A DNA stretch of 64,000 nucleotides, from the IMG/VR virus record IMGVR_UViG_3300022932_000014, positions 1 through 64,000 of that record; one strand, given 5' to 3'. Under the pieces are notes generated by a model. The model saw only the letters and a program-made list of their open reading frames with translations, was not told the origin of the DNA and did no database searches. Below are positions 1,903 through 50,681 of the stretch, one piece after another. Position 1 is the first letter of the stretch; each line of letters starts with the position of its first letter. The DNA comes from a virus. A program made the position numbers and the translations under genes.

Positions 1903-4587
1903 TTATTTTAGTCTGTTTAAAACTGTGTCTATTTCTTTAGGGTTTTGTTGTAGGTATTCTAGTACTGCTTCTCCCACTAATATTTGTGGATATTGTTTAA
2001 TAAATAAAAGAAGTTGTTTATCCATTACTTGTTTACCTGTCTCTGTTTCACTTAGAAGTAATGGCGCTCCTCCTTTTTTAAGAGATACAGAAGTTGTCCA
2101 TTGTCCTTGAACTGGAGTAGCGCTAACGGTAAATTTATTGTAAGCATCTTTTGACATTAGTGCTGTTAAAGCTTCAATTTTTTCTGCGGGAATTAACGCT
2201 TGTAATTTTTGTTTATAAACTTGATCTGTTGTTGGTTGAGTTAAAAAATAACTTGGATTAACTTTAGAACCCATTTGAAAATTCGCTCCTAATGTACCTG
2301 AAATAAAATTACTTGCTTTGTTTAAAGCTGATTTTTGTTGTATATCTAAAAATTGAATATTTTCATTATTTATAGGAGTTGTATAATTACCTGCTGTAAC
2401 TTGTCTTGATTGCGCTTCATTTAAAGCCTGTGCATTTAAAACATTATATAAATCATCTCCTCTTTTAACTGTGTATGTTCTGGCACTTCCGAATATTCCT
2501 TTGACACCCTCTTTTAGACCTGATTGTATAACTTCAAAACTTCCATCATCCGTTCTTCTAAAACTAAGTCCTTTTTTAGGATCAAAAGCTACTTCTCCCT
2601 CCATTTGAGGAATTGCATTAATTATCTGTTCTTTTACTTTATCATTAGTAACTGTTGCTAACTTATTTGTTGTTACAATTCCTTTTCCTTTATCGGCCAC
2701 TATTTTATTTCTTCCTGACAAAGAGTCTTCTCTTAAACTGACAGATCCGAATGGATTTAAAGTTGTTCTCACTCCCGCTCTATCTGCTAGGGTCTCTAAG
2801 CCATTTAATACATTTTCAAAAACTGGTATTTTTGTAGGATCTGCCAATAATGTTTTTTGAAGATTATCCCACCCTCCGTTTTTATTTACAAAGTCTTGTG
2901 CTTGCCTTACTTCAGGAGAATCTGCTGTTTTACTCATTATAGGTATACCATAAGCCCCTGTTGTCTCCACTCTTCCTAAAGAATTTAGTTTTTGTCTAAG
3001 AGAGCTTACATATTTTGCAGGATCTTGTTTGAACACATTTACTGTTTGTGTATTAGATTCTTTTAAAACTGAGGCCATGTCGTTTCTTCTAACATAAGCT
3101 TCTAAAATTTGAGAATACTGTTCTGGAAATAAGTTAGATAAACCTGATTTGCTAAATGCTGTCTTTGCGGCAGTTGCTGGAGCATATCCGCTCTTTATAG
3201 CTTCTGCATAATTTGCTTGATATGATTTTTTAGTATTATCATCTATTCCTCCTCCTTGTAGTGTATTATTCGCCAAAGAAACAATTCCAACACTTTCTGT
3301 AGCGAAATCTTTTACTAATGTGGTATATGGATTAGTTTCATCTACATTTTCCACAGGTAAGTTTGAAAGAGAAACTCCTGTACCTGATCCAACTGCACCT
3401 ACGGCTTCTTTATTTATTTCTTGTTGTAGTTTTGTCATTTCTAAAGAATGCTTTTGTACAGCTCTTGATTCGGCAGAATACTTAAGTTCTAAATCTTTAG
3501 CATCATAAAAAGCAGCATCCGTATCATAAGTAACAGAGGTTTTAGCTCCTGCCATTTTTGCAAAAGTAGTTTTCCAATTTGTAGTTTCTAAAAATCCCCC
3601 TATTGAAGCGGAATTGTTAGGGTCAATACTTTTAAAACTTTGTAAATATTGTGATTTTCTATCTTCTTCTGCTGTTTTATTTCTAAATGCTTGGTTTCTT
3701 TGTTCCTGTGTTAAGTTTTTATTATTGTAATCTACATTATACTTTTCAATATTTGCATTTAAGTTTTCTTCTACATTTTTTGTATATGATTTAAATGCTT
3801 CTTGAGCAACTGCTAATCCATTTTCTCCTTGGTATTTAGCCCAACCATTTATCTGTAATTGTTTTCCTTCTTGTGGGGATAGTATTTGAGGCATGTAAGC
3901 CAATATCTCAGATTCTGTAAGTCCTTTAACAGAAGTTGTTTTTGTTCTTCTTACGCCATCACTATCAGTAAACGGAATTTCAACTGTTTCTTCTCCTTTT
4001 AGCTCTTTAAATGCCTTTGCTTTTTCTAAGGCCGATTTATTTACATCAATGTAGTTTGTATATTGAAGCGCTCCAATTTTATCAACCTTATTACCCTGAG
4101 CATCTCTACCTTGAAGATAGTTAGCAATTCCTGCTTGCTCTTGAGCAAATGCATAATTTACATCAGAATAACTGCCATCATTCTTTTCTCTTTTTTTCTT
4201 TATTTCCGTGTCAAAATTACGAATAGACTGTGAAATACCAATTTGATCTAAAGTATAATCATCAATGGCCATATTGGTATAAGCATTGATTTTATTTGTT
4301 AGTCCACTTTTTGCCCAATTTATTTTACCACTTTTATTTACTTCATCAATAAGTCCTTGGACATTTTGAGCGAATCTATCTTTGTCTTCTTGTCGCAATA
4401 ATAGATTTTCCTGCACTTTTAATTGAGCAAGATTATTATTATACTTTTGTAATCCGTTATCATACTTACCCTGATTAACAGAAAGTGCCTGATTAAGTAA
4501 ATTTAGATTTATTGGACTTTGATATTCTTGTGGAGTATCAGGAGTGGATAAATAAGATGCCATATATTGTTGTTTATTAAAACGCAA
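1903..4587 (-). CDS. Large virion-associated protein, 894 aa
   Basis: This is an 894-residue, mostly helical, Gln/Asn/Lys-rich protein with no recognised enzyme motif. The N-terminus (MRFNKQQYMASYLSTPDTPQ) is followed by long charged helices with coiled-coil character at roughly residues 30-320. It lies between two other very large proteins in the block that encodes cargo or ejection proteins in crAss-like phages, so it is probably packaged in the capsid and ejected. It has its own promoter: a TTTG at 4647-4650 (minus strand) lies 20 bases from a degenerate -7 element at 4619-4626. The transcript would therefore have a leader of about 25 nt. The gene is certain from its length; the role is inferred from context. 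Confidence 0.8.
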   Translation of the reverse strand: MRFNKQQYMASYLSTPDTPQEYQSPINLNLLNQALSVNQGKYDNGLQKYNNNLAQLKVQENLLLRQEDKDRFAQNVQGLIDEVNKSGKINWAKSGLTNKINAYTNMAIDDYTLDQIGISQSIRNFDTEIKKKREKNDGSYSDVNYAFAQEQAGIANYLQGRDAQGNKVDKIGALQYTNYIDVNKSALEKAKAFKELKGEETVEIPFTDSDGVRRTKTTSVKGLTESEILAYMPQILSPQEGKQLQINGWAKYQGENGLAVAQEAFKSYTKNVEENLNANIEKYNVDYNNKNLTQEQRNQAFRNKTAEEDRKSQYLQSFKSIDPNNSASIGGFLETTNWKTTFAKMAGAKTSVTYDTDAAFYDAKDLELKYSAESRAVQKHSLEMTKLQQEINKEAVGAVGSGTGVSLSNLPVENVDETNPYTTLVKDFATESVGIVSLANNTLQGGGIDDNTKKSYQANYAEAIKSGYAPATAAKTAFSKSGLSNLFPEQYSQILEAYVRRNDMASVLKESNTQTVNVFKQDPAKYVSSLRQKLNSLGRVETTGAYGIPIMSKTADSPEVRQAQDFVNKNGGWDNLQKTLLADPTKIPVFENVLNGLETLADRAGVRTTLNPFGSVSLREDSLSGRNKIVADKGKGIVTTNKLATVTNDKVKEQIINAIPQMEGEVAFDPKKGLSFRRTDDGSFEVIQSGLKEGVKGIFGSARTYTVKRGDDLYNVLNAQALNEAQSRQVTAGNYTTPINNENIQFLDIQQKSALNKASNFISGTLGANFQMGSKVNPSYFLTQPTTDQVYKQKLQALIPAEKIEALTALMSKDAYNKFTVSATPVQGQWTTSVSLKKGGAPLLLSETETGKQVMDKQLLLFIKQYPQILVGEAVLEYLQQNPKEIDTVLNRLK

Positions 4588-4618
4588 AATCCCACCCTAT
4601 TTATATAAGATGGAATTG

Positions 4619-4650
4619 CGAAATTACGTTATTTATTTGAGATTTGCAAA
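4619..4650 (-). promoter_or_regulatory. Promoter of the 894-aa cargo gene
   Basis: Minus-strand TTTG (4647-4650), 20 bases, TAATTTCG (4619-4626). The -7 element is degenerate, but the spacing matches the other promoters. Confidence 0.55.
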
Positions 4651-4672
4651 TTAATTATTTTTTGCACTACGT

Positions 4673-7600
4673 TTAAGTTCTTTGAGCGCCTCCAAAACGT
4701 TTCTTTTTAGCTTGGACATTGAATTTTTGTAAAGTTTTCTTTGCATCTAATAATCTTTGATACTCGTCTTGTGGACTTGCGCTGTAATTAGTAGCTAAAT
4801 CTAAATTAGTCATAGCAACTCCATCAGGTGTATACCTAGCATTGTCATACATGGAGTTTATTAGGTTTACAGAGTTTACAGTGTTATAATTACCTAAATT
4901 TACTTTTTGAGCAGTATTATAATAATTTCTAAGATTCTGTTGAGTTATTGCATCAGCTTTTAATATTCTACCTTCATAACTTAATAAATCACTAGCTCTT
5001 GCGTCTTCCTCTCTGGCTTGTATTTGTGCATTTGCTGCATTGGCCTGAAATGTAGAGGCTTGATTTTGTCCTGCGACTTGACCCATTACATTATTTAATT
5101 GAGCTTGTGTATTAGCCTGTACTTGTGCTATTGCCGAGGCTCTTTGCGCGTCTGGCAAACTATTTAAACTCTCTATTGTTGAAGCTTCTTGCCTTCTAAT
5201 TTCATTAACTTGTGCATCAGGTGAAACTAATGGTGCTTCAATTCTATCATATCTCCTATTTATTTTTAGAGCCCCTTGTAAACTATCTGGCAATAAAGGA
5301 CTTTGATCAGGTAAATTTAGTAATCCCAGTGTATTTATTTCCTGATTATTTGCTGTAAATGATGGAAGTTTATTGGTTGGAGAAGGTTTGGTTGCCAGAG
5401 GTCTTGAATCAGGTGTTACTTCTGCAATTCCATAATCAGCTGATGTATCTCCAATAAGACCTTCAATGTTATCTAAATTTTTAATACTAGGAGCAGAAAG
5501 TTTAGCTCTTAAAGGTGAGTTTTTTAGTTGTTTAACTGTTAATATTCCATTGTCGGCCAATAACTGTTTTTCTTCTGGTGTTACTAAGTTAATTTGCATT
5601 GAATATCTTCCAGAAGTAAAATTACCTAATTTTTCATCATACCCTCTAATAGCTCTAGACTGATCTGTTTCTCCTGTTGTATCTGGTAAAAAAGTCTCTT
5701 CTGTTAAATATCTTTGAGCTTCTTTAACTGCATCTGAATTAAAGTTATTAGGGTTATTTATAATAGTTTGAGCTGAGTCTTTCATATTCTCATCTATCAA
5801 TCTTTGCACATTCCCTACAATTTCAGATTGTTTGTTTAAAGGTACATTCCCTTTTAACTTTACATTCCCTTTTGAGTCAACTGTTATCAATTGTTTAAAT
5901 CCAGGATCAGAATTAATAATATTTGGAAAATTATTATACAGATTTTGAAGAGCTTCTTGTGACTTAACTACTCCATATGCCTCTTGATTAGCTGATTGTT
6001 GTTCTCTAATATTTTTACTGTAAGGATTTAAGTTACTAGTTACATTGGCTGTTCTATTTCCTCCGTTTTGAAATTCATAAAGTAATTCTTTTACTTTTTC
6101 TTGTGGAAGACTATATTTTTTAGAATATTCTATAATCATATCTCCATTATAAAGGCCTCCATTTTGCATAATGGGTTTTGTAATTTCCTCTGCATTATGA
6201 CCTACTTTAGAATCTTCTTGTAAATTAAATACTTCATCAAAAAAGCTTTTACGTGCTTCTATTATAGGTAATTTCTCTTGCTCTAATTCTTGAAATTCTT
6301 CAGTTAGGAAATTTACGTTAATTCTAATTGTATCTTCTAAGTTTGGATTATGTAATAATTTATCTGCTTGTTTTTGAAGTTTTGAGGCTATGTCCTCTTG
6401 TTCTTTAATAATTTTATCAAGCCCTGTTTTTCTGTTGAATTTGTCAATTACATCTGCATAAGTGTTTGTAGACTTAACCCCTAAATCATATTCTTCATTA
6501 AATTTTTTAGCGCCGTCTTTACCTATTTTTAAATGGTCGGAAATAATTTGAGAGTCTTCTGGTAATTGTTCTGCTGTAAGTTCAATACCTCCTTTTTCAT
6601 GAGTAGCCCCTAATGCTTTTTGAATTGTCCCATCAGGTTTTTTTATGTACTCATCTTTTTCTATTTCGGCAACTTTTTCTCCTTCTGGAGTTTCAGCTAC
6701 ATATTCCCCTGTTGCTACCTTATTTTCGTCTTTTTTTTTTAATCTTCCCCCGTCTTTCATAAATGCTTGAGGCTCTTGAACAGGCGGTGCTTGTCCTTGT
6801 TGTAAGGTAGAAACCATTTCTTGAAGAGCAGCTTGCTGTTGGTCTGGTGGTAATTGTTGTAGTTCAGCCATTATTGCTTGTGGGTCTTGGCCTGTAGATT
6901 CTGCAAAAGCTATTACAATATCTTCTGGACTAGGGGTTGATTGCTGCCCGCCTTCCTGAAAATATCCACCTATTTGTAAAGACTGAGTTGCAGGTACAGA
7001 AGCTTGTCTTGCTTTCTGTTGATACTCATTTAAAATATTTTGTCTTCTATTGGCCGTACCTAATCCTGAAACAAGATTTCTTCCTAATCCTGTTGCTAAT
7101 TTAGTTGCTGAGACTCCGATATCAAAAGCATTTCCTGTTCCGATACCTTGGCCTAATTTATAAGCTGCGCTAGGAATATCGAAGCCTCCATATGGGTTAA
7201 AATAAGAAAAATTTTCTGTTACATTTGGTGTTTGAGTAGGCGTTTGTAGTGGGTTTCCATTCATGTCGTATTGATCTCTTTGATCTACAACACCATCTCC
7301 ATTATTATCCCCTTGAATATACTCTGATCCTGTATCTTGGACTCCATAAGTATTAGGAGCTGTAATTTGAGGTGGAGTAGAATATGGTGATAGTTCATTA
7401 GGATTGTAGGTAAATCCATTATTTGTAGTATTTGGTAGAGTATATTGTTGAGCTAATTGATTAGAGTAAGTACCAAATTCATTGGTGTCAAACTGATTTG
7501 TTGTTGGTGGTTGCAGTGTTATTGGTTGTGGAGTATACCCTATATTACTAGGCGCTGTAAAATTTCCTCCTATTTGTTTGTTTTTTTGATTCCACATTGA

Positions 7601-7729
7601 ATAAGCAATGGCAATTGCCTGATCTTGTTTATAACCTTCATCTGAAAGTGTTTTTATCTTGTCAGAAATCCATTCCTGTTTAGAATTACCACCATCTTTA
7701 TATCTATTATTTTTTATTCTTCTTTCCAT
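4673..7729 (-). CDS. Large virion-associated protein with EF-hand-like loop and repeated GG motifs, 1018 aa
   Basis: The N-terminal helix pair (about residues 20-50, EGYKQDQAIAIAYS) is a module I recognise from crAss-type structural proteins. Residues 141-152 form a dockerin/EF-hand-type calcium loop (DNNGDGVVDQRD). A Gln-rich stretch follows at about 270-320. A central beta-rich module with THEKGG (near residue 380) resembles a domain common in large Bacteroidota-phage virion proteins. The rest is helical and Gln/Asn-rich. Short motifs of the form Q-x-G-G or K-D-G-G recur (IGG, QEGG, KDGG, QNGG twice, and FGG near the C-terminus) and may mark processing sites. The stop directly precedes the 85-base promoter gap, and the start abuts the lysozyme/peptidase gene. 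A cargo or ejection protein is the most likely role. Confidence 0.75.
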   Translation of the reverse strand: MERRIKNNRYKDGGNSKQEWISDKIKTLSDEGYKQDQAIAIAYSMWNQKNKQIGGNFTAPSNIGYTPQPITLQPPTTNQFDTNEFGTYSNQLAQQYTLPNTTNNGFTYNPNELSPYSTPPQITAPNTYGVQDTGSEYIQGDNNGDGVVDQRDQYDMNGNPLQTPTQTPNVTENFSYFNPYGGFDIPSAAYKLGQGIGTGNAFDIGVSATKLATGLGRNLVSGLGTANRRQNILNEYQQKARQASVPATQSLQIGGYFQEGGQQSTPSPEDIVIAFAESTGQDPQAIMAELQQLPPDQQQAALQEMVSTLQQGQAPPVQEPQAFMKDGGRLKKKDENKVATGEYVAETPEGEKVAEIEKDEYIKKPDGTIQKALGATHEKGGIELTAEQLPEDSQIISDHLKIGKDGAKKFNEEYDLGVKSTNTYADVIDKFNRKTGLDKIIKEQEDIASKLQKQADKLLHNPNLEDTIRINVNFLTEEFQELEQEKLPIIEARKSFFDEVFNLQEDSKVGHNAEEITKPIMQNGGLYNGDMIIEYSKKYSLPQEKVKELLYEFQNGGNRTANVTSNLNPYSKNIREQQSANQEAYGVVKSQEALQNLYNNFPNIINSDPGFKQLITVDSKGNVKLKGNVPLNKQSEIVGNVQRLIDENMKDSAQTIINNPNNFNSDAVKEAQRYLTEETFLPDTTGETDQSRAIRGYDEKLGNFTSGRYSMQINLVTPEEKQLLADNGILTVKQLKNSPLRAKLSAPSIKNLDNIEGLIGDTSADYGIAEVTPDSRPLATKPSPTNKLPSFTANNQEINTLGLLNLPDQSPLLPDSLQGALKINRRYDRIEAPLVSPDAQVNEIRRQEASTIESLNSLPDAQRASAIAQVQANTQAQLNNVMGQVAGQNQASTFQANAANAQIQAREEDARASDLLSYEGRILKADAITQQNLRNYYNTAQKVNLGNYNTVNSVNLINSMYDNARYTPDGVAMTNLDLATNYSASPQDEYQRLLDAKKTLQKFNVQAKKKRFGGAQRT

Positions 7730-10294
7730 TTATGAAAATCTTTTATTTTTAGTTCTTTTTAACTGTGGGGTTTCGTGTATTACTTTACCTTTGAATTGAT
7801 ACTCTTGATTAGGATACATCATTTGTTGATTTCCATATTCATCTACACCCAAAATAGGGTAATTGACATTTTTCATCGTAATTAATCCTGAATCAGTTGG
7901 GACAATAACTTCTTGTTGAGGATAATCATAAACACCATTCGGGCTTATAGGAATATTCCCACCATTTTGTGCGTAAACAGCACTAGTTTCTTGGTTGTTT
8001 TGAGCTATTGTATTTATGGCTTTTACTATTTTATCATCATCATAAGCCTTGTAAAATATCTCTTCATCTAGGCCTTTTTCTTTGACCATTTGTTGAAGTT
8101 GTTTTATATCTACTTTTTGTCCTGGTTTTAAACCTAAGTTTTGTCTAAACATGTGAAAATTACCATATGTTTCTTCAGGATGTGATAAGTACTCTCTATC
8201 TCTTTTAAATGTCCCTTTCTGTTGGTTATTTACATCTCCTAAAACTCTTTGTAGCGCTGGTGCAACTACAGCATCTATATTGGAGGCATGGCTAAGTTCA
8301 TGACCTAAAACACTTCTCATATTAGGCGCTTTAGAATATGGAGTGGATTCTCTTTGTCTTTGATATAGTATCTCTCCTGTTTTTTCATTTGTACCTCTAT
8401 TACTAGTTTGCTGAAAATATGGACTAGTATACAAAGCGTCTGCTCCTATTTTAGACAAGTATCCAATATCTTCATTAGTTTCCGCCTCTCTTATTGGAGT
8501 TCTTAACCCTTTACCAATAAAATCTTGAAGCCTATTAGCATCTAAACCTGTGTTCTTAGAAAATTTTTCTTTAGTGGCTGGATCAGAATACCAATTAATA
8601 AAATCTTGAGAAGCTTGTTGCTCAACTAATTTATCTCTCTTTAGGGGTTTATCTGTAGGTTTTACTGTTCTTACATAATTTGTTTCTCCTTGGTTTAAGG
8701 AACTGTTTATTTTAATTACATCAGATAATTTTCTTTTATCGTTATTATCCTCTATTAAAACTTTAGGTATAATGTTAACCAGCCCTGTTTGTCCAAATAC
8801 TGATGACAGAGCTCCTCCATTTTGTCCATAAATTAAATTATTATCTTCATTTTGCGCTACATTATTCATTAAATATATAATAGCTTCGTCTGAATAAACA
8901 CTTTGTAATCTATCTTTAGTGGCAGATTTTTTAGTTCTTTTAAACATCTCTGGAGTAAAATCTTGCTTTCCTGCATCATAAACACCTTCTCTTTTAAGTA
9001 GGTATCTGAACGCATCTAAATCTGCTTTGTTTTCTCCTGGAATTAAATCATGTTCAGGGATATTTTTATCTTTTTTATGATAATTAGTAAGCCTTCTTAT
9101 ATCTGTCTTATTAAACCTGTCTTCTGGAAATAAACTAGTAGTGGCATGTGATCTCTCGTGAGTCTCTATTTCCTCAGATGTTGGTTGAGTTGCATTTGGA
9201 TAAACATCTCTATGAGTATCAATATTATATTTAGAATCTAATTGTATTTTCTTTGTAAATGGACTGTAATAACTGCCTCTTTCACCTTCTTCTTGTTTTT
9301 TACCTAATAATGACTGTATTACATTTGGTGCTGGTGGAGCTTTATATGGAAAAACTTCAGGGTTTGTTCCTACTAATCTTCTTTTTATTTCACCCTCAAC
9401 ATCTTCATAACCGCTATTTTTTAAACGTTCTCTATATTTAGGCGAGTTAAGGTATTCTAGAGTGAATTGCTTTGGTGTTATTGGATTAGCGTTATTCATA
9501 GGAAGATCATAAATACCTCCTCTTTGAAAGTATTGCTCTTGATTATAGATATCTTCTTGTTGTACTTGGTTAGGATCAACATACTGTACTTGGGAAGCTA
9601 CTAATAAATCTTGTATGAATCTTTGTTGATTAATTTGTTCTTGCTGTTTACTGTTTAACTCTTCTTTGGCCTTTTTTACGGCTTCTGTTTCATTTTCTGG
9701 CGCTAAGGTAGGTATATCTATAATGGAAACCAAATTACTTACTTCTGGTGTGTATGTAATAGGTATTTCATTAGTAGGTGGCGTATAACTGTCTATTGCT
9801 CTTTGTGCTGTTCCTTTTAAAAACTGTTGTTGGTCTAACTCTGTGAGGGAACTGCCTGATAATTTTTTATAAGTGTTTAATACTAAGTTTTGTCTTTTAG
9901 TATCAGCATGAAATTTTACTTTTGGCCTCTCATAATCATCTGATACAATTCTACCTGTATTATAAACACCTTGCGCTGTTCTTAACTTATCTCCTGCTTT
10001 TTTATGAGTATTATTTAATTCCCAATTTACAAAATCTAATTGGTTGTCTAAATCTGTCCAATTTGATCCGTATTTATTTTGTAAGGCCTCTAATCTTCCA
10101 CTGTGCCACTGCGCGATACCTTTTGATCCTTTTGTATCCGCTGTTCCTAATATAGTAGTATTCAGATTACTTTCTCTTATCAAATTACCCACAATACCTG
10201 CTGCTTGGTCAGGAGTCCATCCATAACTAAGCATTTTCTTATAGGCGTATTCTTCTTTGTTTTGTTGCTTTATTTTATCTTTTATTAGCACCAT
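7730..10294 (-). CDS. Virion polyprotein: tail-lysozyme domain plus two HExxH metallopeptidase-like domains
   Basis: Residues 15-150 match the phage tail lysozyme type, with GWTPDQAAGIVGNLIRES and the likely catalytic Glu41, then GIAQWH at 59-64. This domain would open peptidoglycan during DNA entry. Two later regions each hold a zinc-peptidase HExxH signature, at 379-383 (HERSH) and 665-669 (HELSH). Short QxGG motifs sit at 257-260, 491-494 and 776-779, each at the boundary between these regions, so the protein looks like a chain of units that may be cut apart. The start overlaps the stop of the upstream homing endonuclease by one base, and the next gene begins at once, so translation is coupled. 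I see the peptidase motifs directly; zinc binding and activity are inferred, and third ligands were not assigned. Confidence 0.8.
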   Translation of the reverse strand: MVLIKDKIKQQNKEEYAYKKMLSYGWTPDQAAGIVGNLIRESNLNTTILGTADTKGSKGIAQWHSGRLEALQNKYGSNWTDLDNQLDFVNWELNNTHKKAGDKLRTAQGVYNTGRIVSDDYERPKVKFHADTKRQNLVLNTYKKLSGSSLTELDQQQFLKGTAQRAIDSYTPPTNEIPITYTPEVSNLVSIIDIPTLAPENETEAVKKAKEELNSKQQEQINQQRFIQDLLVASQVQYVDPNQVQQEDIYNQEQYFQRGGIYDLPMNNANPITPKQFTLEYLNSPKYRERLKNSGYEDVEGEIKRRLVGTNPEVFPYKAPPAPNVIQSLLGKKQEEGERGSYYSPFTKKIQLDSKYNIDTHRDVYPNATQPTSEEIETHERSHATTSLFPEDRFNKTDIRRLTNYHKKDKNIPEHDLIPGENKADLDAFRYLLKREGVYDAGKQDFTPEMFKRTKKSATKDRLQSVYSDEAIIYLMNNVAQNEDNNLIYGQNGGALSSVFGQTGLVNIIPKVLIEDNNDKRKLSDVIKINSSLNQGETNYVRTVKPTDKPLKRDKLVEQQASQDFINWYSDPATKEKFSKNTGLDANRLQDFIGKGLRTPIREAETNEDIGYLSKIGADALYTSPYFQQTSNRGTNEKTGEILYQRQRESTPYSKAPNMRSVLGHELSHASNIDAVVAPALQRVLGDVNNQQKGTFKRDREYLSHPEETYGNFHMFRQNLGLKPGQKVDIKQLQQMVKEKGLDEEIFYKAYDDDKIVKAINTIAQNNQETSAVYAQNGGNIPISPNGVYDYPQQEVIVPTDSGLITMKNVNYPILGVDEYGNQQMMYPNQEYQFKGKVIHETPQLKRTKNKRFS

Positions 10295-11049
10295 TAGTCT
10301 GTTATTTCTACTTGATAATTTATTAAAGCTTCATATGTTTTTGGAGCTAATTTAGGTTTCCATATTTCGGCAACTTCTTTTATGTGTGTCTCTTTGGCTA
10401 CTTTGTAAGCCTGAAATGCTTCTTCAGGGGTGTTGAACATACCTAAGTGAATTAGTTTATTCTCTACTCTAATCTTAGCGTCAAATCTTCCGTTTCTTCT
10501 ACTTACACCTAAAGGTAGTTCCCCTCTGCAAGATTGCCTTTTTGTCAGTAGTTTATTTATCTCTAAAGGCACAAAACAGCAATTTTCAGGAGAATATATT
10601 TTATTTCCTTTTATAAGTACATCTTTATCTAAATGCCATCCTTCCATATGAGGTTTCCAATTTTCTTCATACCATTTTGCAAAGTTTTGGAAATTGTGCC
10701 ATTCTGAATTAACACTACATCCAATGTAAGTGGGATATTTTTTATGTAATTTATCATCATAGCTTCTCTGTAATGCAGACCCCCAAGATTTATAATACTT
10801 TGTCACTACACCATCTATAATAGACTTATAATCCCCCTCTCCCATATATCCAACTCCATAGACATTTTTTAAATATGGATTTTTAATTGAACCACTTTTA
10901 ATATTTGTATAAGTTCTATTATATAATATATACTTTTCGTTAACTATTATTGTGCAATTACGCGCACTGATATAATCAATTATTCTAACAGATTCACATT
11001 GGTTGGATATGTGAATTTCTCCAACCCTTTCTTTTTTCTTTGATTTCAT
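10294..11049 (-). CDS. AP2-domain HNH-type homing endonuclease (copy 2)
   Basis: This 251-residue protein has the layout of phage AP2/HNH homing endonucleases. A region with W-NFQNFAKW, then LDKDVLIKGNKIYSPENCC, forms the degenerate HNH core. An AP2-like DNA-binding module follows (LPLGVSRRNGRF to HLGMFNTPEEAFQAYK). It is a clear paralogue of the protein at 12041-12625, and the last 11 residues (ALINYQVEITD) are identical. About 60 extra N-terminal residues are unlike the other copy. It has its own promoter (11066-11097) although it sits inside the structural operon, and its stop overlaps the next start by one base. It is a selfish insertion between the muzzle C-terminal piece and the lysozyme gene. 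No intron boundaries are evident. Confidence 0.8.
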   Translation of the reverse strand: MKSKKKERVGEIHISNQCESVRIIDYISARNCTIIVNEKYILYNRTYTNIKSGSIKNPYLKNVYGVGYMGEGDYKSIIDGVVTKYYKSWGSALQRSYDDKLHKKYPTYIGCSVNSEWHNFQNFAKWYEENWKPHMEGWHLDKDVLIKGNKIYSPENCCFVPLEINKLLTKRQSCRGELPLGVSRRNGRFDAKIRVENKLIHLGMFNTPEEAFQAYKVAKETHIKEVAEIWKPKLAPKTYEALINYQVEITD

Positions 11050-11065
11050 TTATAAATTATTTGTC

Positions 11066-11097
11066 CAAAGATATAATTTTATTTTGATATATGCAAC
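11066..11097 (-). promoter_or_regulatory. Promoter of AP2/HNH endonuclease copy 2
   Basis: Minus-strand GTTG (11094-11097), 20 bases, TATCTTTG (11066-11073), 17 bases ahead of the start codon. The -33 element overlaps the stop region of the muzzle C-terminal gene. Confidence 0.65.
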
Positions 11098-12038
11098 TAT
11101 TGCTCTAAATTTACTTTTGAACTTAAAAGATTAATTGCATATCTAAGTCTTGTCTCTATTGACTGTTCTAACCTAATTGTGAATACATTGCTGCGGAGAG
11201 GTTCAAGAACATTCTTGCCACTAAATTTTACAATATCTGTATTAATTGTTTTATTTATTTGATTTTTATCCCAAATCCAAGTAGGCTGGTTAGCCTTATG
11301 AGAGAGCATCCTATTATAAAAATAATTAGTAGTATACTCACTTCCCACCTTCGTCACAAGTACTTCTTGATACGAACCATCTTTTGCGGTAATAGGATAT
11401 TTAGAAATAAATGATAATTGACCTGTATTTGGTACAAGTCTTAGTTCTCCTGAATTGGTAAACGGTGAGTAAATCCACATCTTATTAAAAGGCTTATCAT
11501 CTATTTGAGCTGAATCATAGGCATTGTGATACCTACTCACTTCCATTTCAAAACCAACTGTTTTTAACAGTATTTCTCCATATTCTCGTTTCAGCATGTA
11601 TTCAACTAAGAATGGATACTTTTTACCGTAAAATACTTGATAACTTCTATTAGTTAGTAAGTGTGACCACAATCCTAATTCTGTTGAGTCTGTACTTTGG
11701 TTTATTCCTGTTTGGAAATAATTTTGGTGAGGGATGTAATAGTTTGGAGTGTAACTGTAAAACCCTACCCACTTTTGCTCTATGGGAGAAAATGCGATCG
11801 TCCAGCTAACGTCTTCAAAATAGTTAGGATCTGTCACTGAAACAGGTGTTTTTACTTTTTCAATTGTTGGCTCAACGCTCTCAGTACAAGAACATACTGC
11901 ATTTCCATTTGGGAGTATTATTGTTTCACACCCATCATCGCATACAATATCATTTATAACTACTGTGCAGTTACAATATACTATTCCTTCTATTGTTTGT
12001 TGAGAGCATGTCTCATTTGGACAATTACATGTTGCCAT
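11097..12038 (-). CDS. Muzzle/tail-stabilisation protein, detached C-terminal part
   Basis: I chose the ATG at 12038 (MATCNCPNETC), directly after the stop of the endonuclease gene. An upstream in-frame start would lie inside that gene. The first 60 residues are Cys-rich. The remainder (SWTIAFSPIEQKWVGFYSY, then YYIPHQNYF and VFYGKKYPFLVEY) is a beta-rich region that I recognise as the usual C-terminal part of crAss-type muzzle/tail-stabilisation proteins. There it follows sequence like FITKKDY, which in this genome is found in the 2233-residue gene upstream. The muzzle protein therefore appears to be made as two polypeptides with an endonuclease gene between them. Both edges are Cys-rich, which might help the pieces associate. 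That the pieces reassemble is inferred. Confidence 0.7.
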   Translation of the reverse strand: MATCNCPNETCSQQTIEGIVYCNCTVVINDIVCDDGCETIILPNGNAVCSCTESVEPTIEKVKTPVSVTDPNYFEDVSWTIAFSPIEQKWVGFYSYTPNYYIPHQNYFQTGINQSTDSTELGLWSHLLTNRSYQVFYGKKYPFLVEYMLKREYGEILLKTVGFEMEVSRYHNAYDSAQIDDKPFNKMWIYSPFTNSGELRLVPNTGQLSFISKYPITAKDGSYQEVLVTKVGSEYTTNYFYNRMLSHKANQPTWIWDKNQINKTINTDIVKFSGKNVLEPLRSNVFTIRLEQSIETRLRYAINLLSSKVNLEQ

Positions 12039-12040
12039 AG

Positions 12041-12625
12041 TTAATCGGTTATTTCTACTTGGTAGTTTATTAATGCTGAATAGCATGCTTCTGTAATCTT
12101 ACTGCGCCATTTATATGCAATCTCTTTAATATAAATTTCTTTGGCGATCTTGTATACTTGGAAAGCTTCTTCAGGAGTATTAAATATTCCTAAATGATCT
12201 CTATCTTTACCAAATCTGGCTCTAAATTTTTTACCTGATTTTGTAACACCTATTGGATATTTTCCTCTTGATTTTCCGCTTTTTATAAATAAACTATTAA
12301 TTTCAAGTGGAACTAGACAACATGCTTCGGGAGAGTAAATTCTATTACCTTTTATTAAAATATCTTTATCTAAAGCCCAACCCAACATTTTTTCAACTGT
12401 ATACCTTTTTTCAAACCATTTTGCGAAGTTTTGAAAATTGTGCCATTCTTGATGTACTTCACATTTAATATAAGAAGGTTTCGTTTTATGGTATTTGGGG
12501 TCATAACACCTTTGTAACATACTTTGCCATATCTTGTAAGACTTATTAGAACTAATATACTTACCTATCCCTCTATATCCAACACCATATACAGAAGGTT
12601 TTAATCTGTGATCAATCTCAATCAT
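12041..12625 (-). CDS. AP2-domain HNH-type homing endonuclease (copy 1)
   Basis: This 194-residue protein contains YKIWQSMLQRCY, then WHNFQNFAKWFE (61-72) and LDKDILIKGNRIYSPEACC (85-103), the degenerate HNH core. An AP2-like module follows at about 122-160 (YPIGVTKSGKKF to LGIFNTPEEAFQVYK). The family is known as free-standing or intron-borne homing endonucleases of phages. It lies between the two parts of the muzzle protein and is served by a near-consensus promoter at 12644-12675 (TTTG-N20-TATATTTG, minus strand). Its stop is 2 bases before the start of the muzzle C-terminal piece, so that piece may depend on translation coupled to the endonuclease. Its last 11 residues are identical to those of the copy at 10294-11049, which suggests recent duplication or gene conversion. 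Confidence 0.82.
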   Translation of the reverse strand: MIEIDHRLKPSVYGVGYRGIGKYISSNKSYKIWQSMLQRCYDPKYHKTKPSYIKCEVHQEWHNFQNFAKWFEKRYTVEKMLGWALDKDILIKGNRIYSPEACCLVPLEINSLFIKSGKSRGKYPIGVTKSGKKFRARFGKDRDHLGIFNTPEEAFQVYKIAKEIYIKEIAYKWRSKITEACYSALINYQVEITD

Positions 12626-12711: not shown

Positions 12712-15700
12712 TTAAGGTATTATAGTCCATCCTTTAGCTAAAAGTAATGTTTCTGTATTTGTTCCTGTAATACCTAGTGCAGGTATATTACTTGATGCTT
12801 CTAGTATTCCATTATTTCCAGCTAACGCTATCCAACTTGTTTCCGTGTTCCAAGATGTAACAGTAATTTTATTATTATTTAAATACAATCGCTGAAGGCT
12901 ATTTGGTAAAGCTAAACTTGGATTAAATATTACAATATCATTAGCATTTAAGAATAGTTGCTGAAGGCTACTTGGTAAAGGAATTGTGGGATTAAATGTG
13001 ACAATCTCATTAACTTGTAATCCTAAATCTAATAGCCCACTTGGTAAAGCTAAACTTGGATTAAATATTACAATATCATTAGTAGCCAGATTTAAATTTT
13101 TTAAACTAGTTGGCAAAGGAATTGTAGGATTGAAAGTTACGATTTTATTAGCTTGTAAATTCAAAGTTTCAAGTCCATTCGGTAAAGGGGTTGTAGGGTT
13201 GAATGTGACAATATCATTACTAACTAAATTTAAATTTTTTAAACTAGTTGGCAAAGGAATTGCAGGATTGAAAGTTACTATATTATTATTTTGTAAACTT
13301 AAATTTAACAACCCATTTGATAAAGCTTCAATAGGGTCAAAAACTACAATAGAATTAGTAACAAAATTTAAACCTGTAAGACTTGGTATTTTTACAATGT
13401 TAACCGTAGTTACATTTTTACTGTCTATTATTAAACTTGTCATATTAGTATTAACTCTAAATCTCACTCTTCCTCCAACTAAAGAGAAATTTGTTATAGT
13501 TGCAAATGTTGTTCCAGATTGCGTTAAGAAAAATGATTCCCAAGCACTCACTGTAGACAATGTTCCCCAATTTGTTGAAACAACATCAAAATTTATTGCG
13601 GGCGGTTGAACTGTCACTGTAACAACTGTCGTAATTGAAATACATCCATCAATTGTAGGTGTAATCGTATAAACGGCTGTTCCCGAAGTAATTCCATCAT
13701 TAATTAATAAGTCAGTTATTGATGTTCCTGATCCGCTTGTTGCTCCTGTAACTCCACTTTGAACTACTGTCCATGTGAAAAGTGCTCCTGGATCTCCACT
13801 TAAAGTGATGTTTGTTGTTTGGCCACTATTTATGTTTTGAGAAGGCGGTGTTGCAACTACTGTAGCTTCACAATCACAATCTGCTGGTACTGTTGTTGAA
13901 AGTGTACAGGTCTGTGTATCTTCATCATAAATATAACCATCTGGGCACAAAGTCCCTGATAATGTTGTTTTTTCACATAACTCTGTTATTGGATTATATT
14001 CGTACCCTATCGGACAAGTTATCTCACTTTCTCCACAATCTGTGTAAAAACCAATATTCTTGTCAAATTTTAGACATGGATCAACTTTAGGTATATAGTC
14101 TTTTTTAGTTATAAATACGCGTCTGAATCGACTATCGTAACCCATAGCTATACCAACTCCATTTATTGCATTATCTGTATCTAAATCGCTTATATTAGCT
14201 ATTTGAGATTTTAGTATTTTAAATGGAAGATGTTCTTTAAACCAATTTCTCATTCCACTTGGTTTACCATTTATAAGACTTGATATCTCGTTCATTCCTT
14301 GACCACCACTTGGGATCTCAATAACTTGGCCTCTTTTAGCATCTACGTGATAATGACCAAATTCACAACTTACAGATTCTGAACTTCCTGTTCCTCCAAA
14401 TCCAAGATCTGTTTCTGAATAGGTCATTGGTCTTCTTGCAAAAGCTGAAGATAAATTTCTTGAATCCGCTCTTTTACCATCATCTACGGCCACATCAATA
14501 GCATTGAATAGAGAAGTTGCATTTTCTTGTCTAATTAGAATTTGCTCTCTTTCAATTGTGCGGATATCTTTTAGTTTTCCATATTTACTATCAAACTCAT
14601 AAAAGTCTAGTGGTTTGTAATTTAAGTAAGGATCATTATAATTATTTTCACTGTTGTCTGGTTGCGACCACATTATACCATTAGGCTTATCATTTCTACA
14701 ATCGCTTTCTGACTGATCAAAATTATCTGACAAGGTTCTATATGCTGTAGTTGTTACAGGTTTAGAATATATTTGATTATAAAAGAAAAATTCTCCTTTT
14801 TTAATTGATACATTTTTTTCTTGTGTCCATTCAGATGTATCTCCTGTATTTGGATAAAAGTTTCTTTCTAATGTTGGTTCGGCGGTTCTATTCCAGGTAT
14901 TTATTCTAGTTTCAGTTAAGAAATTAGGAACTCCATAATAATATAGATAAAATTTGCTTGGTGGTCTATAGTAATTAGTTTGTTTAGTTTCACAATCAAA
15001 TTTTAAATCATAATCTATGTCTGGAAATAAAGCAGACTGTCTTCTGTAGTCTGTCATTACTTCATAATCTACATAAAATCTAGGTTCTCTCCCTATATTA
15101 GAATAAAATTTATAATTAAAGGGTGTTAAACTTGCTAAACCAAATGCTGTATCTGTAAACAACGGCATTTTTCTTTTAAGCGTATGTCTAGAAATAAAAG
15201 TGTCTCCTCCAAAAATAGATAAGCATGTTGTTTTAGGATTTTTCAAGTCTCCTCTGTATCCTGTTGACAACCATTTTATAGAATTAATTGTACCGTATTG
15301 TGAAGGTAAGTAGTTTTTTAAAGCCACATATGGATTGGCAACATTTTTCTTTATTACTTTACTTATTCCTGTAGTACAAGCATTATTTTGACTTGCTATA
15401 GTTAAAGACGAGGTATTTGTATCTATCTTATTGTTATCAAAAGATACATATTCTGTAGGATAATTTAGTGTATTAGAAACACCTAAAGTTAACAGAACAG
15501 ATTTTTCTCTATCTAAATTATTTATGCTTATTTTTTCTCCTGTGACATCATCTACTTGTGAAAAATTACCTTCTTTTAAATACTTTGCGGAATATAGAGA
15601 CCTGATTTGATTTCCATTTTCTTGTAATAATTGCATGTAATTATACTTAGCACTAGAATGAAAATATGAAGAAAAGTTTTCAGGTTGCCCTAAATCTCTA

Positions 15701-18700
15701 AATGCTTTTATCCATTCTAATCTGTGTCGCCCGTAATTTACAACTACAGAACTAATTGCTGATAATGCTCCTGCTATAATAGAAAGCACAATACCTGCTG
15801 GATTGACAGATACTACAAATCCTGCGGCAACTCTATAGTTCTCCCCTGCATTTGCCAACTGTACTGCAACTTCTGTAGCTACCTCTAGTCCTGCTAATAA
15901 TCCTGCTAAGTCTTTTGCTTTTCTTGTTAAGATTACAAATTTTGGATGATCTTTTACTTCATTAAAATAACTGTTATCTGTTTGTCCAAATACATATCCC
16001 TGCACAGATAATTCTGTTGGTAGTGTGTATCTATAATAATCTGTTTCTGGACTGTGATAAGTGAATTTATCGTTCTTTAATCCATTGTAAGGATGTGGGA
16101 TAAATGTTGTTCTACTTCTGTCTGAATAATTTAAAATATCACTTCCTAAATCATTATAAGGATAATTAGAATAGTAAATAGACTGTGTTTTGTCATTATC
16201 ATCTATATACTTTCTCATATCAAATATAAGACCTGAAGACATTATACTTCTATCTTGTGCTATATCTCCTCTGAAGATTTCATATCCTGATATTTGATTT
16301 CTTTTTTCTTCACTTAATAATCCGTTATTGACCGAGATATCTAAGAATGAATTGATTGTAGTTTCATCTATTGTTATTCCTAATGGATATATCACTGAAT
16401 CACTTTGAGTCAATTGAGGATTTTCATACATGAAAGGACTAACCTTATTATCAGGAAATTTAAAATGTCTTATATTTCTACAAGTAAAATTTACTAAAGG
16501 TTTTTCAACACTATCTTTCTTCCACTGGTAATTGCCTTCTGAATCTAAAATAGGTATGAACACCTCTGAAATAGTTGTACCTTCTACAAATTCTAATTCA
16601 AATTTTTCTCTTTGAAAGATATTTATATCCGCAGGTTTTATTTTTAAAGTGCTAGAATCATATAAAGAAGTATTATCGGGATAAATCTCTTGACTTTCCC
16701 AATAAGCAAAATCTCCTTTTTTATATGGAGTGGCTATACATGAATTTGCAACAGGTTTATTGAATGTACAAGTTGCCGTGTAAGTTTGTTTTTTATCTAT
16801 TCTTATAGATTCATAAGTTACATCTATTCTGGAGTATTCTCTACTTCTAATAACTACAGCAAAACACCCACTTAAAGGTGCTGTTCTGTACACTATTTCT
16901 TCTGCGCAATTCTCTTGGCTTATGATTTTAGCATCAATAGCTACATAAAAGTTTTGACCTGAAATTTGACCTATATTTGTAGAAATTCCTGCTTCATTAG
17001 TAATAGTCCAATCTAAAGAGTTATCTGCTTTCTGGAAAAACAACATCTCTCCTTGTGTTGCATCTACTACTTTAGAATATAAAGGTGTTGTTGAATTACA
17101 TTTATTATAAATAGAAAATCTTATATCATTTCCTGCTGAAATATTATCTGTTTGCTGTAATTCTTTTATTTTAGATACTTCTAATACGAATCTATCTCTA
17201 CTTAATATATCTCCCTTAAACCATAAAACTCCTTTGTGTAATTTATTTGTCCATTCTGCTCCTGAAGCAACTGTATCTTTTGTTGTTTGAAGTTCTGCTA
17301 CAGTTTCTGCCCCATAATAATCATGAAAATATCCTTGATTAAAACTACTTGTAGGTGTAACTTCTGCAATTGCATCAGCATATGTACATTCTAAATTTTC
17401 AAATTGAAGAGTTCTGTAAAAAGCAGTTCTTGGTTGAGGGGGGAATCCTCCTCTACATTGCATAAAAGCAGTTTCAAAATCTGTATTTCTTTTTGGATTC
17501 CCTGTACTTGTATCTAATTCATAAATTGTACAAGTTTGTGGAGGTTTTGTTTTAATATACTCTGTTGGGAAAACAGCATCCACCATAGTAGCAGATTCTC
17601 CGACAATGGCTCCTACAATTAATTCTTCATCATCTAATATGGGCGCTTCACAATTATTATAATTTGGTGTGCAATTTAAGTTACTATAACAGTCTATATC
17701 AAAATAATTACAGAAAGGGTAAGAATTTGCATCAGAAGGAGACGGACAATTTGCATAAGTTAAACAATCACCATTAGTAATAGTGTCAGTTATAAAGGTT
17801 GTTAAATCTACGTAATTCTGAGTTGTTTCTATACTAAATGTTGCGCCTGGTGTAGTGGTAACATTTTGATAAACACAGTTTTTTTGAATGTCTTCCTGTA
17901 CTTCAACTATTTCCAAAGAGTCAGAAGAACAAAAATCTTCATCTTCAGTTGCTGTATTATAATATTGCCAATATTTAGTTCTGTCTGTTGAATTACAAGC
18001 GCTTTTATTTGACTCTATAGAAATTCTATCTTTATTAGTGATAGGCACTTCTATTAAATCATTTTCTTTTGCATTTCTATTAATTAAAGGAAATAAAGAT
18101 GTTTTATAACCACCTTCTAATAAAAATCTTATAGAGTAAGGTACTACTTCATCTCTATTGATAGATAAATATAGTGAGTCTTTTACTCCGTCTTTATATA
18201 GATCTTCTTTAGCTATATGTGTTTGCCACTTTAAAAAAGAACCTAATAAATTAACTACAGGTTGCAGATTTATTTCTTTTTCAGTTGTTATTCCCGCGCC
18301 TATTAATGAATTATTACTCTCAGTTAAAAATTCCCAGCGTTGAATATATAAATTCTCTCTGATTAAATCAGATAATTCAATTGTTTGTTTATTTTGTTCC
18401 CCTCCATAAATAACTGTTGTGTCGTTTATATTGTGAATTCCTTCTATGAAAAATCGTGTCACTCCAACATCCTCTAAAGTTGTTTGAATAACTGCAATTT
18501 TATAATGTGTAAATCTTTTATCTAAATTACCAACTTGAAGTTTAATAGAAAAATTAGTTGGTGTTCCTAATTCTGCTTGAGTTAAAGTAACATTATTTCT
18601 GTCAAATATTTGAATAGGGTTAGTTATAGAAGTATATTCTGATATTTCATTACCTAATTGATCTGTATAAGCAATTAGAAACTCATAAGTCCCTAATTTG

Positions 18701-19413
18701 AGTCTTCCTCCTAATTCAATTGAAACTGGAGTTAATTCTGGTAAGTTATATCTTTTAAAAATAAGAAGTTTATCTGCGTCTAAACAGGTAGGAACTATTT
18801 CATCTACTCCGCAATTAATATCTCCTGTTTGTTTATATTGTTGTAAATTATCTAATACTATGTATCTAGGAGGTGTATTGTCATCAGTGAAGTATATTGT
18901 TTTACCACACTTCTCATTTTTTATAACTGTTTTTTTTATCGGCGAGTTAACAGAAAATTGAAATCCTTTTTCTGGTTCCCCCGCTAATATGTGACATTCA
19001 TCACTAAGTAATGTTTCATATATATTTAGTTCTGTCTGCGTAATATTTTCTAATGGTTCCGCTAAATCAAAGTATTTTACACATCCTTCACAATCATTCT
19101 GCAAGTCGTCTATATTTTGAATTTGCTGAACATTTTTTATCTGGCCAAATTCTCCCACGCCTGTTGTAGGATTTACTAGGAAGAAATAGGTTGAATTGGA
19201 ATAAATATCATTTGTACCATTAATTACTTTAAATCCTGCTTTAAATCTAGAGGAAAGTAAATTAGACATCTCATTGGTTAAAGTGAAACTTCCTCCATCT
19301 ATCCCATCAAAAAGGCCATTCAAAAGAGTTGAGTAATCAGCTTCTCCTAAATTATATTGATCTCTATTTAATCCTCTTTGAGGTTGATTTAATTTTATAT
19401 CTGGTTTAGCCAA
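12712..19413 (-). CDS. Muzzle/tail-stabilisation protein, main part, with PKD-like and LRR C-terminus, 2233 aa
   Basis: The N-terminus (KLNQPQRGLNRDQYNLGEADY) and the long beta-rich body are of the crAss muzzle (P22 gp10-related tail stabilisation, Tstab) type. This protein closes the distal end of the tail barrel. A hydrophobic, Ala/Gly-rich helical hairpin lies at about residues 1165-1225. Near residue 1765 the normal FITKKDY region is followed by features that are unusual for the family. These are Cys-rich CPxGYxYxxxTxxC repeats (about 1780-1845), a PKD/Ig-like domain (about 1850-1935), and then a leucine-rich-repeat domain (about 2000-2190) of 23-residue units such as LKNLNLVSNDIVTFNP. 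The usual C-terminal region is encoded separately at 11097-12038. The exposed LRR could bind a host surface component; this is inferred. Confidence 0.85.
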   Translation of the reverse strand: MAKPDIKLNQPQRGLNRDQYNLGEADYSTLLNGLFDGIDGGSFTLTNEMSNLLSSRFKAGFKVINGTNDIYSNSTYFFLVNPTTGVGEFGQIKNVQQIQNIDDLQNDCEGCVKYFDLAEPLENITQTELNIYETLLSDECHILAGEPEKGFQFSVNSPIKKTVIKNEKCGKTIYFTDDNTPPRYIVLDNLQQYKQTGDINCGVDEIVPTCLDADKLLIFKRYNLPELTPVSIELGGRLKLGTYEFLIAYTDQLGNEISEYTSITNPIQIFDRNNVTLTQAELGTPTNFSIKLQVGNLDKRFTHYKIAVIQTTLEDVGVTRFFIEGIHNINDTTVIYGGEQNKQTIELSDLIRENLYIQRWEFLTESNNSLIGAGITTEKEINLQPVVNLLGSFLKWQTHIAKEDLYKDGVKDSLYLSINRDEVVPYSIRFLLEGGYKTSLFPLINRNAKENDLIEVPITNKDRISIESNKSACNSTDRTKYWQYYNTATEDEDFCSSDSLEIVEVQEDIQKNCVYQNVTTTPGATFSIETTQNYVDLTTFITDTITNGDCLTYANCPSPSDANSYPFCNYFDIDCYSNLNCTPNYNNCEAPILDDEELIVGAIVGESATMVDAVFPTEYIKTKPPQTCTIYELDTSTGNPKRNTDFETAFMQCRGGFPPQPRTAFYRTLQFENLECTYADAIAEVTPTSSFNQGYFHDYYGAETVAELQTTKDTVASGAEWTNKLHKGVLWFKGDILSRDRFVLEVSKIKELQQTDNISAGNDIRFSIYNKCNSTTPLYSKVVDATQGEMLFFQKADNSLDWTITNEAGISTNIGQISGQNFYVAIDAKIISQENCAEEIVYRTAPLSGCFAVVIRSREYSRIDVTYESIRIDKKQTYTATCTFNKPVANSCIATPYKKGDFAYWESQEIYPDNTSLYDSSTLKIKPADINIFQREKFELEFVEGTTISEVFIPILDSEGNYQWKKDSVEKPLVNFTCRNIRHFKFPDNKVSPFMYENPQLTQSDSVIYPLGITIDETTINSFLDISVNNGLLSEEKRNQISGYEIFRGDIAQDRSIMSSGLIFDMRKYIDDNDKTQSIYYSNYPYNDLGSDILNYSDRSRTTFIPHPYNGLKNDKFTYHSPETDYYRYTLPTELSVQGYVFGQTDNSYFNEVKDHPKFVILTRKAKDLAGLLAGLEVATEVAVQLANAGENYRVAAGFVVSVNPAGIVLSIIAGALSAISSVVVNYGRHRLEWIKAFRDLGQPENFSSYFHSSAKYNYMQLLQENGNQIRSLYSAKYLKEGNFSQVDDVTGEKISINNLDREKSVLLTLGVSNTLNYPTEYVSFDNNKIDTNTSSLTIASQNNACTTGISKVIKKNVANPYVALKNYLPSQYGTINSIKWLSTGYRGDLKNPKTTCLSIFGGDTFISRHTLKRKMPLFTDTAFGLASLTPFNYKFYSNIGREPRFYVDYEVMTDYRRQSALFPDIDYDLKFDCETKQTNYYRPPSKFYLYYYGVPNFLTETRINTWNRTAEPTLERNFYPNTGDTSEWTQEKNVSIKKGEFFFYNQIYSKPVTTTAYRTLSDNFDQSESDCRNDKPNGIMWSQPDNSENNYNDPYLNYKPLDFYEFDSKYGKLKDIRTIEREQILIRQENATSLFNAIDVAVDDGKRADSRNLSSAFARRPMTYSETDLGFGGTGSSESVSCEFGHYHVDAKRGQVIEIPSGGQGMNEISSLINGKPSGMRNWFKEHLPFKILKSQIANISDLDTDNAINGVGIAMGYDSRFRRVFITKKDYIPKVDPCLKFDKNIGFYTDCGESEITCPIGYEYNPITELCEKTTLSGTLCPDGYIYDEDTQTCTLSTTVPADCDCEATVVATPPSQNINSGQTTNITLSGDPGALFTWTVVQSGVTGATSGSGTSITDLLINDGITSGTAVYTITPTIDGCISITTVVTVTVQPPAINFDVVSTNWGTLSTVSAWESFFLTQSGTTFATITNFSLVGGRVRFRVNTNMTSLIIDSKNVTTVNIVKIPSLTGLNFVTNSIVVFDPIEALSNGLLNLSLQNNNIVTFNPAIPLPTSLKNLNLVSNDIVTFNPTTPLPNGLETLNLQANKIVTFNPTIPLPTSLKNLNLATNDIVIFNPSLALPSGLLDLGLQVNEIVTFNPTIPLPSSLQQLFLNANDIVIFNPSLALPNSLQRLYLNNNKITVTSWNTETSWIALAGNNGILEASSNIPALGITGTNTETLLLAKGWTIIP
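12880..13400 (-). repeat. Tandem 69-bp repeats encoding leucine-rich repeats
   Basis: About seven consecutive units of 69 bp (23 codons) encode L-x-x-L-x-L-x-x-N-x-I-V-x-F-N-P-x-x-P-L-P. Adjacent and alternate units are very similar at the nucleotide level. For example, the blocks around 13090-13140 and 13225-13280 are nearly identical, which implies recent expansion by duplication or recombination. The opposite strand shows a 207-codon open frame here only because the repeat lacks stops in that frame. Confidence 0.85.
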
Positions 19414-50384: not shown

Positions 50385-50681
50385 TTAGCGCCATTTTGGA
50401 GTTAAATCTATTTCTTCTAGTCCACAAACTGCCATTTTAACCCTGGTCTTAGCTTTGATACTACAACCGCAAGCACTACAAACTGCCTTAGTTATTTGAA
50501 TAAACATTAAAAACTTTTCTCTGAAAGTCAACTCTTTCTTATTTCTAGTATTGTATTCACAATTTTTACAGATTTCTCTTCTTTCTTTACACCAAGTCTC
50601 CTTACTATTTTTGTAAGCAATTAATCTAGAATTAAGGATCATCTTCCAAGTTGACCATTTTAGAAATTTATTTTTGACCAT
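50385..50681 (-). CDS. Small zinc-ribbon-like protein behind GroEL, about 98 aa
   Basis: I prefer the ATG at 50681 (MVKNKFLKWSTWK) over the one at 50702, since it shortens the overlap with the GroEL stop to 14 bases. The Cys pattern CKNCEYN...CSACGCSIKAKTR...C gives four or more potential zinc ligands. Similar small Cys proteins occur in many phages with unknown roles. It is translationally coupled to the chaperonin gene. Confidence 0.6.
   Translation of the reverse strand: MVKNKFLKWSTWKMILNSRLIAYKNSKETWCKERREICKNCEYNTRNKKELTFREKFLMFIQITKAVCSACGCSIKAKTRVKMAVCGLEEIDLTPKWR

Follow-up and report, generated by a model that had tools for sequence, protein, structure and literature searches.

A predicted phage virion protein in which a lysozyme domain, two putative zincin modules and a C-terminal module meet at exchangeable QxGG joints

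We describe a viral gene whose protein product is built of exchangeable modules with the motif QxGG at their borders. The gene lies in a stretch of 64,000 nt (positions 1 to 64,000 of IMG/VR virus record IMGVR_UViG_3300022932_000014; hereafter the window) and encodes a protein of 854 aa, in which a phage tail lysozyme domain, two modules with an HExxH motif (A and B) and a C-terminal module (C) follow one another. The QxGG sites mark genuine borders, at which modules have been gained, lost, swapped and reordered among related phages. In the reading that we favour, with a probability of roughly 0.5, this is a crAss-related virion cargo protein whose modules carry GG-ending motifs that are most likely cut, which would free the lysozyme and the putative zincins.

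The preliminary description of the window had placed QRGG, QNGG and QNGG between the lysozyme, the two HExxH regions and the C terminus. This placement is confirmed (residues 257-260, 491-494 and 776-779); to it we add a fourth piece, module C after the last QNGG, and a neighbouring virion protein with the same motif. The features of the gene are as follows.

7730..10294, minus strand: open reading frame (ORF) of 854 aa, with the order lysozyme, QRGG, putative zincin A, QNGG, putative zincin B, QNGG, module C (ORF call exact).
9866..10255, minus strand: phage tail lysozyme domain PF18013, residues 14-143 (Pfam match; nearest solved structure phi29 gp13, Morphogenesis protein 1).
9515..9526, minus strand: joint 1, QRGG, residues 257-260 (motif; DNA identity between the window and locus L004 falls here from 95% to 50%).
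8813..9514, minus strand: module A, residues 261-494, a predicted divergent zincin ending in joint 2 (alignment, model, Foldseek).
9146..9160, minus strand: HERSH of module A, residues 379-383 (both His invariant in 29 homologues).
9032..9034, minus strand: presumed third zinc ligand of module A, E421 (invariant in 29 homologues).
8813..8824, minus strand: joint 2, QNGG, residues 491-494, in the disordered tail of module A (motif and model).
7958..8812, minus strand: module B, residues 495-779, a further zincin-like module that is a homologue of A (missing in loci L005, L006 and L008).
8288..8302, minus strand: HELSH of module B, residues 665-669 (motif).
8171..8173, minus strand: presumed third zinc ligand of module B, E708 (invariant in four homologues).
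7958..7969, minus strand: joint 3, QNGG, residues 776-779 (motif).
7733..7957, minus strand: module C, residues 780-854 (comparison with relatives).

The lysozyme domain matches PF18013 with E = 1e-28 (100.7 bits against a curated cut-off of 28.2). The protein has three GG pairs, every one within QxGG; shuffling of its residues gives P = 0.0013 for at least three QxGG and P = 1e-4 for at least two HExxH. When counted over the full virus record (G000; 143,127 bp, 43,529 aa), eight of the 12 QxGG fall in the 854-aa protein and the adjoining protein of 1018 aa (Fisher p = 8e-8). The combination of a lysozyme, two HExxH units and QxGG at the borders is real.

Exchange of modules is seen directly in the relatives. 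In locus L004 the lysozyme, B and C are as in the window and module A is a different one (37% identity); loci L005 and L006 keep module A, have no B and carry a different C. Phage phi17:2 has the order lysozyme-B-A, and module C opens the following gene in phi17:2 and phi4:1 and occurs in other contexts in other phages. The breakpoints can be followed in the DNA: in 60-nt steps, identity with L004 is ~95% up to nt 780, the position of joint 1, and ~50% beyond it, while identity with L005 is 81-100% up to joint 2 (nt 1482) and ~45% beyond. The neighbouring gene has a swapped N-terminal module in comparison with L005, the two being unlike before the second joint (aa 55) and 90-100% identical after it. 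Phages phi4:1 and phi14:2 belong to different phage groups and share one Cellulophaga host species; their B modules are connected by a 659-bp DNA match (78% identity) that starts 4 nt past the GG of joint 1 of gp41 and stops shortly before joint 2. The earlier suggestion that motifs stand at every joint is thus borne out by both the module swaps and the drops in DNA identity, which identify the joints as genuine module borders.

Module C contains a 45-aa segment (ITMKGV..P.IG....G....M.PG..Y.F.....V.E.P) that recurs in unrelated virion proteins, namely at aa 51-95 in locus L050, at aa 48-93 in L064 (with xxGG next in both) and at about aa 891 in L037. We know of no family name for this segment.

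The joint has the properties of a linear motif. Its statistics come from the 28 proteins with a locatable module A core among 49 loci related to module A in IMG/VR. A GG pair lies no more than 35 residues upstream of the core in 23 of the 28 proteins (against 0.21 at random positions) and no more than 30 residues downstream in 15 (against 0.19). At 33 of 38 joints the residue two positions ahead of GG is Gln or Lys; among GG pairs taken from other ORFs of these loci this holds for 75 of 445. In an alignment anchored on GG, the −5 column, mostly Ala, has an entropy of 1.19 bits, the −4 column (Gln or Lys) one of 1.37 bits and GG itself one of 0, and values of mostly 2.2-3.5 bits are found in the linker before the joint and in the residues from +1, which gives a rough consensus of hydrophobic-[AFM]-[QK]-x-G-G with a free +1 residue. 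Conserved Ala, Gln/Lys and GG in a variable linker, followed by a free +1 residue, fit the P-side specificity of a protease. The joint (223-234 of the module A model) is predicted to be disordered. In four loci (L032, L042, L046 and L051) an N-terminal module A is preceded just by a leader of 9-15 residues ending in xxGG; a linker would join nothing there, while a processing site would make sense. Taken together, these sequence features favour cleavage after GG.

At 13 GG sites all four Gly codons (GGT, GGA, GGC and GGG) are in use and the flanking DNA differs; since the joint codons vary, selection acts on the protein. A DNA recombination signal at the joints was rejected on the same grounds, the free variation of the Gly codons and the differing flanks. 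As a separate observation, GG a few residues from the C terminus is mildly over-represented in the 18 joint-bearing proteins of the set of loci (seven cases versus 1.8 expected), an example being ...KKKRFGGAQRT in the window ORF 4673-7729.

On alignment and profile evidence, A and B are homologous, divergent members of the predicted zincins. Among 29 A modules (27-97% identity to that of the window) H119, H123 and E161 (module numbering) are invariant and E120 is conserved in >90%. The AlphaFold2 model built from this 29-module alignment has a pLDDT (predicted local distance difference test) of 86 and consists of strands, then an HExxH helix (113-126), then a Glu-bearing helix (159-175), a layout described for the zincins of polyvalent proteins (PMC5512222). 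Zincins make up many of the top PDB matches of the model in Foldseek (Zmp1, selecase, lethal factor and an M48-type peptidase), with E of 0.09 at best, and its confident matches among viral models are uncharacterised proteins of phi4:1, phi14:2 and Crassvirales. All 29 A modules belong to phrog_24249 'tail protein' of PHROGs; sequence searches with module A gave no solved relative, and neither A nor B reached the cut-off of any Pfam or NCBIfam family, with weak matches only to M78 and M91. Comparison of the A and B profiles (hhalign) gave a probability of 97% and E = 1.2e-10, with the common register ending at the joint. In module B the HExxH and a downstream Glu are conserved in four sequences, and it is because of these residues and the homology to A that B, too, is taken as a putative zincin.

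Module A looks virus-restricted, since no relative in bacterial genomes was confirmed in two contig scans, in which the pattern search was limited. In crassviruses of the Suoliviridae a relative of module B lies between the portal and major capsid genes and is followed by the motif-like VAQGG or YLAEGG. Beside this relative, between the same two genes, there is a second small HExxH protein of 117-127 aa (L074 6075-6458, L079 4075-4458 and L080 4203-4556), one copy of which is annotated as a putative zincin superfamily protease.

Two further genes of the window define the setting of the 854-aa protein.

4673..7729, minus strand: neighbour virion protein of 1018 aa with seven [QK]xGG, five of them QxGG (phi4:1 homologue gp40).
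12712..19413, minus strand: muzzle-protein homologue of 2233 aa, upstream (csAssE-Sib muzzle, 35% identity).

GenBank annotates as virion proteins, from tandem mass spectrometry (MS/MS), the homologue of the 854-aa protein in phi4:1 (gp41), that of its neighbour (gp40) and phi14:2 g070, which consists of module B and an A-like putative zincin. The assignment to the virion made in the preliminary description is therefore supported by homologues; taken as a whole, that description is partly supported. The 1018-aa neighbour carries the joints and has no known enzyme domain or zincin. Between the muzzle homologue and the 854-aa gene there are only a 329-aa ORF (11097-12086) and an HNH endonuclease gene; with the muzzle homologue upstream, the 854-aa gene has the position of the crassvirus cargo genes, which in crAss001 come after the muzzle gene. 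A 221-aa ORF (20891-21556) has a weak match to the crAss001 ring protein gp40 (E = 0.016). The cargo proteins of crAss001 are expected to exit the virion ahead of the DNA (PMC10172136).

Several observations concern these neighbours. Relative to phi17:2 the muzzle homologue is split, its C-terminal part being the separate 329-aa ORF (11097-12086, minus strand), and the 2233-aa ORF (12712-19413, minus strand) has leucine-rich repeats at its end, at about aa 1983-2200 (matches to leucine-rich repeat structures in PDB). The HNH homing endonuclease (10294-11049, minus strand) lies just ahead of the lysozyme gene and has an equivalent in L005 and L008 and none in L004; in L006 a GIY-YIG-endonuclease-like ORF (4521-5417), following MKRVK, takes the place of the first part of the neighbour gene. 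Elsewhere in the window, a GroEL-like chaperonin is encoded at 50668-52335 on the minus strand (PF00118, E = 2.8e-57).

In the reading we favour, the N-terminal lysozyme would cut peptidoglycan on entry, the opening of peptidoglycan at this step being the role of PF18013-type lysozymes. The particle would carry the paralogous zincins A and B as peptidases. Every module ends in a motif of roughly the form hydrophobic-[A/F/M]-[Q/K]-x-G-G within a disordered tail, and recombination sets whole modules between motifs; cleavage would most likely follow the GG, either inside the virion or during ejection, so as to separate the lysozyme and the zincins, and the zincins themselves are candidates for the cutting protease. 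Catalysis by the zincins, ejection and cleavage at GG are what we infer here. Since the neighbour virion protein has joints without a zincin, any cutting must work in trans too; and since exchange of the zincins leaves the motif as it is, a separate trans-acting protease fits better than the zincins.

A number of results weigh against this reading. Foldseek gave no confident match of module A in PDB (best E = 0.09), and the A homologue in locus L045 lacks the catalytic Glu (HTMSH). Structure prediction, proposed in the preliminary description for both HExxH domains, returned the zincin topology for A; the model of B, built from four sequences, is poor (pLDDT 49). Exchange is not confined to the joints, as the differing lysozyme domain of L006 and L008 has its borders elsewhere. 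An N-terminal GG leader is not general in joint-bearing proteins (three seen versus 3.2 expected). No C39_2 (PF13529) or S78 (PF04586) protease was found in G000, and PF02902 (C48) had no match there either, though its control set was silent too, so that this search is uninformative; ten head and tail genes scanned against Pfam and PHROG likewise showed no protease. Finally, the N4 virion RNA polymerase (vRNAP), which also bears a zincin, is packaged uncut, as cited by Iyer et al. 2017 (PMC5512222).

It is possible, and compatible with the favoured reading, that the zincins are injected effectors cutting host proteins of defence or of the envelope, with the joints serving just the shuffling of effector modules between phages. 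The fast turnover of modules, their transfer between unrelated phages of one host and the crassvirus cargo slot all agree with it, as does the view of polyvalent proteins as early-infection effectors (PMC5512222). The same genome, outside the window, also encodes a protein of 2102 aa that carries an ART-PolyVal domain close to the N terminus (G000:C1:131888-138196, minus strand, which is L013 11889-18197). What effector shuffling leaves unexplained are the specific residues around GG and the presence of the same joints in a neighbour protein that has no known enzyme domain.

We consider it rather doubtful that the joints are merely flexible linkers in a single uncut chain, which would act as a tethered lysozyme with two peptidases for passage through the envelope, in the way that a lysozyme and an endopeptidase are combined in phi29 gp13. 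In favour are the frequent use of GG as a hinge, the predicted disorder of the joint, the match of the lysozyme to phi29 gp13 in PDB and the lack of a processing protease in the searches of G000 (with the C48 control silent). Simple linkers do not account, however, for the residues kept at −5 and −4 in an otherwise variable linker, for the five-fold enrichment of Gln or Lys at −4, or for the four proteins in which the motif follows a leader of 9-15 residues with no domain ahead of it.

Unlikely, in our estimate, is a role of the zincins as virion-maturation proteases that cut QxGG both in cis and in trans. Modules A and B do end in the joint itself, the Suoliviridae homologues, located between portal and major capsid genes, have VAQGG or YLAEGG behind the zincin, and P1 DdrB, which is cut before packaging as cited by Iyer et al. 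2017 (PMC5512222), offers a precedent. Against this, nothing links a zincin directly to the site, the joint is undocked in the model, and the motif is unchanged in phages with other zincins (B absent, A replaced), which again fits a shared trans-acting protease better. That the motif is a recombination hotspot of the DNA with no role in the protein is hardly credible: module breakpoints do fall at the joints, but the amino-acid preference is kept across divergent phages.

A wider and more speculative proposal, which we regard as improbable on present evidence, is that crAss-related phages of Bacteroidota share a grammar in which cargo modules end in hydrophobic-[AFM]-[QK]-x-G-G and are cut after GG by a phage protease of AVP-like specificity, possibly the zincins, this being an unrecognised maturation protease of crassviruses.

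Polyvalent proteins with zincins are already known; the joint motif, the exchange of modules at the joint and both zincin families appear undescribed in the literature searched. Our search, which took in few subscription papers, turned up nothing published on processing at GG in crAss-like phages. If the joints are cut, relatives of the most abundant human gut viruses would treat their cargo in the manner of animal virus polyproteins, and many giant virion proteins that are now unannotated could be searched for cargo modules by the motif. Even without cutting, the joints show where unrelated phage genomes trade whole enzyme modules, and the analysis defines two putative zincin families that Pfam does not cover. 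The cultured Cellulophaga phages allow a direct test of joint cleavage.

Among known systems, phi29 gp13 carries an M23 endopeptidase, and we know of no QxGG joints in it. Like the 854-aa protein, this tail-knob protein (PDB 3csq) joins a lysozyme of the same kind to a metallopeptidase in one virion protein; unlike it, the peptidase is of the M23 type and not an HExxH zincin. With the crassvirus cargo proteins C1 and C2 (phi-crAss001 gp45 and gp46; PMC10172136) the 854-aa protein shares the position after the muzzle gene, here with an HNH gene between; in phmmer searches against PDB chains neither it nor the 1018-aa protein matched the crAss001 cargo chains gp45 and gp46.

Closer in composition are the polyvalent proteins. 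Iyer et al. 2017 (PMC5512222) described phage proteins with several unrelated domains, zincins being the commonest, and suggested roles in processing or as injected effectors. Twelve clades of their zincin-like MPTase domains (MPTase-PolyVal) have been published. Such proteins are recognised by at least two unrelated enzymatic domains in a single protein of a mobile element, and the 854-aa protein has a PF18013 lysozyme and two zincin-like modules. It further resembles them in the multiple copies of zincins, in the fusion to a lysozyme and in the proposed co-delivery with DNA and self-processing. It differs from them in that A and B are without a Pfam or NCBIfam family and are exchanged at GG joints; no joint motif was found in the passages of that paper that we consulted.

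Processing at a short motif common to many virion proteins has parallels as well. In the prohead-protease maturation of T4, phiKZ and SPN3US, ejection and head proteins are processed at such motifs, in SPN3US after Glu (PMC5694885); the site is A-X-E or similar there and GG here. The adenovirus protease AVP cuts (M/I/L)XGG|X and tolerates Gln or Asn in the P4 position as well (PMC4246237), and the [Q/K]xGG|x of the joints is similar; in adenovirus, too, several virion precursors share the site. No cysteine protease of the C5/C48 type was found here (with the control silent); the likeness would be convergence at most. The specificity of AVP shows that a virion protease can recognise such a GG site, as an analogy and not as a claim of membership.
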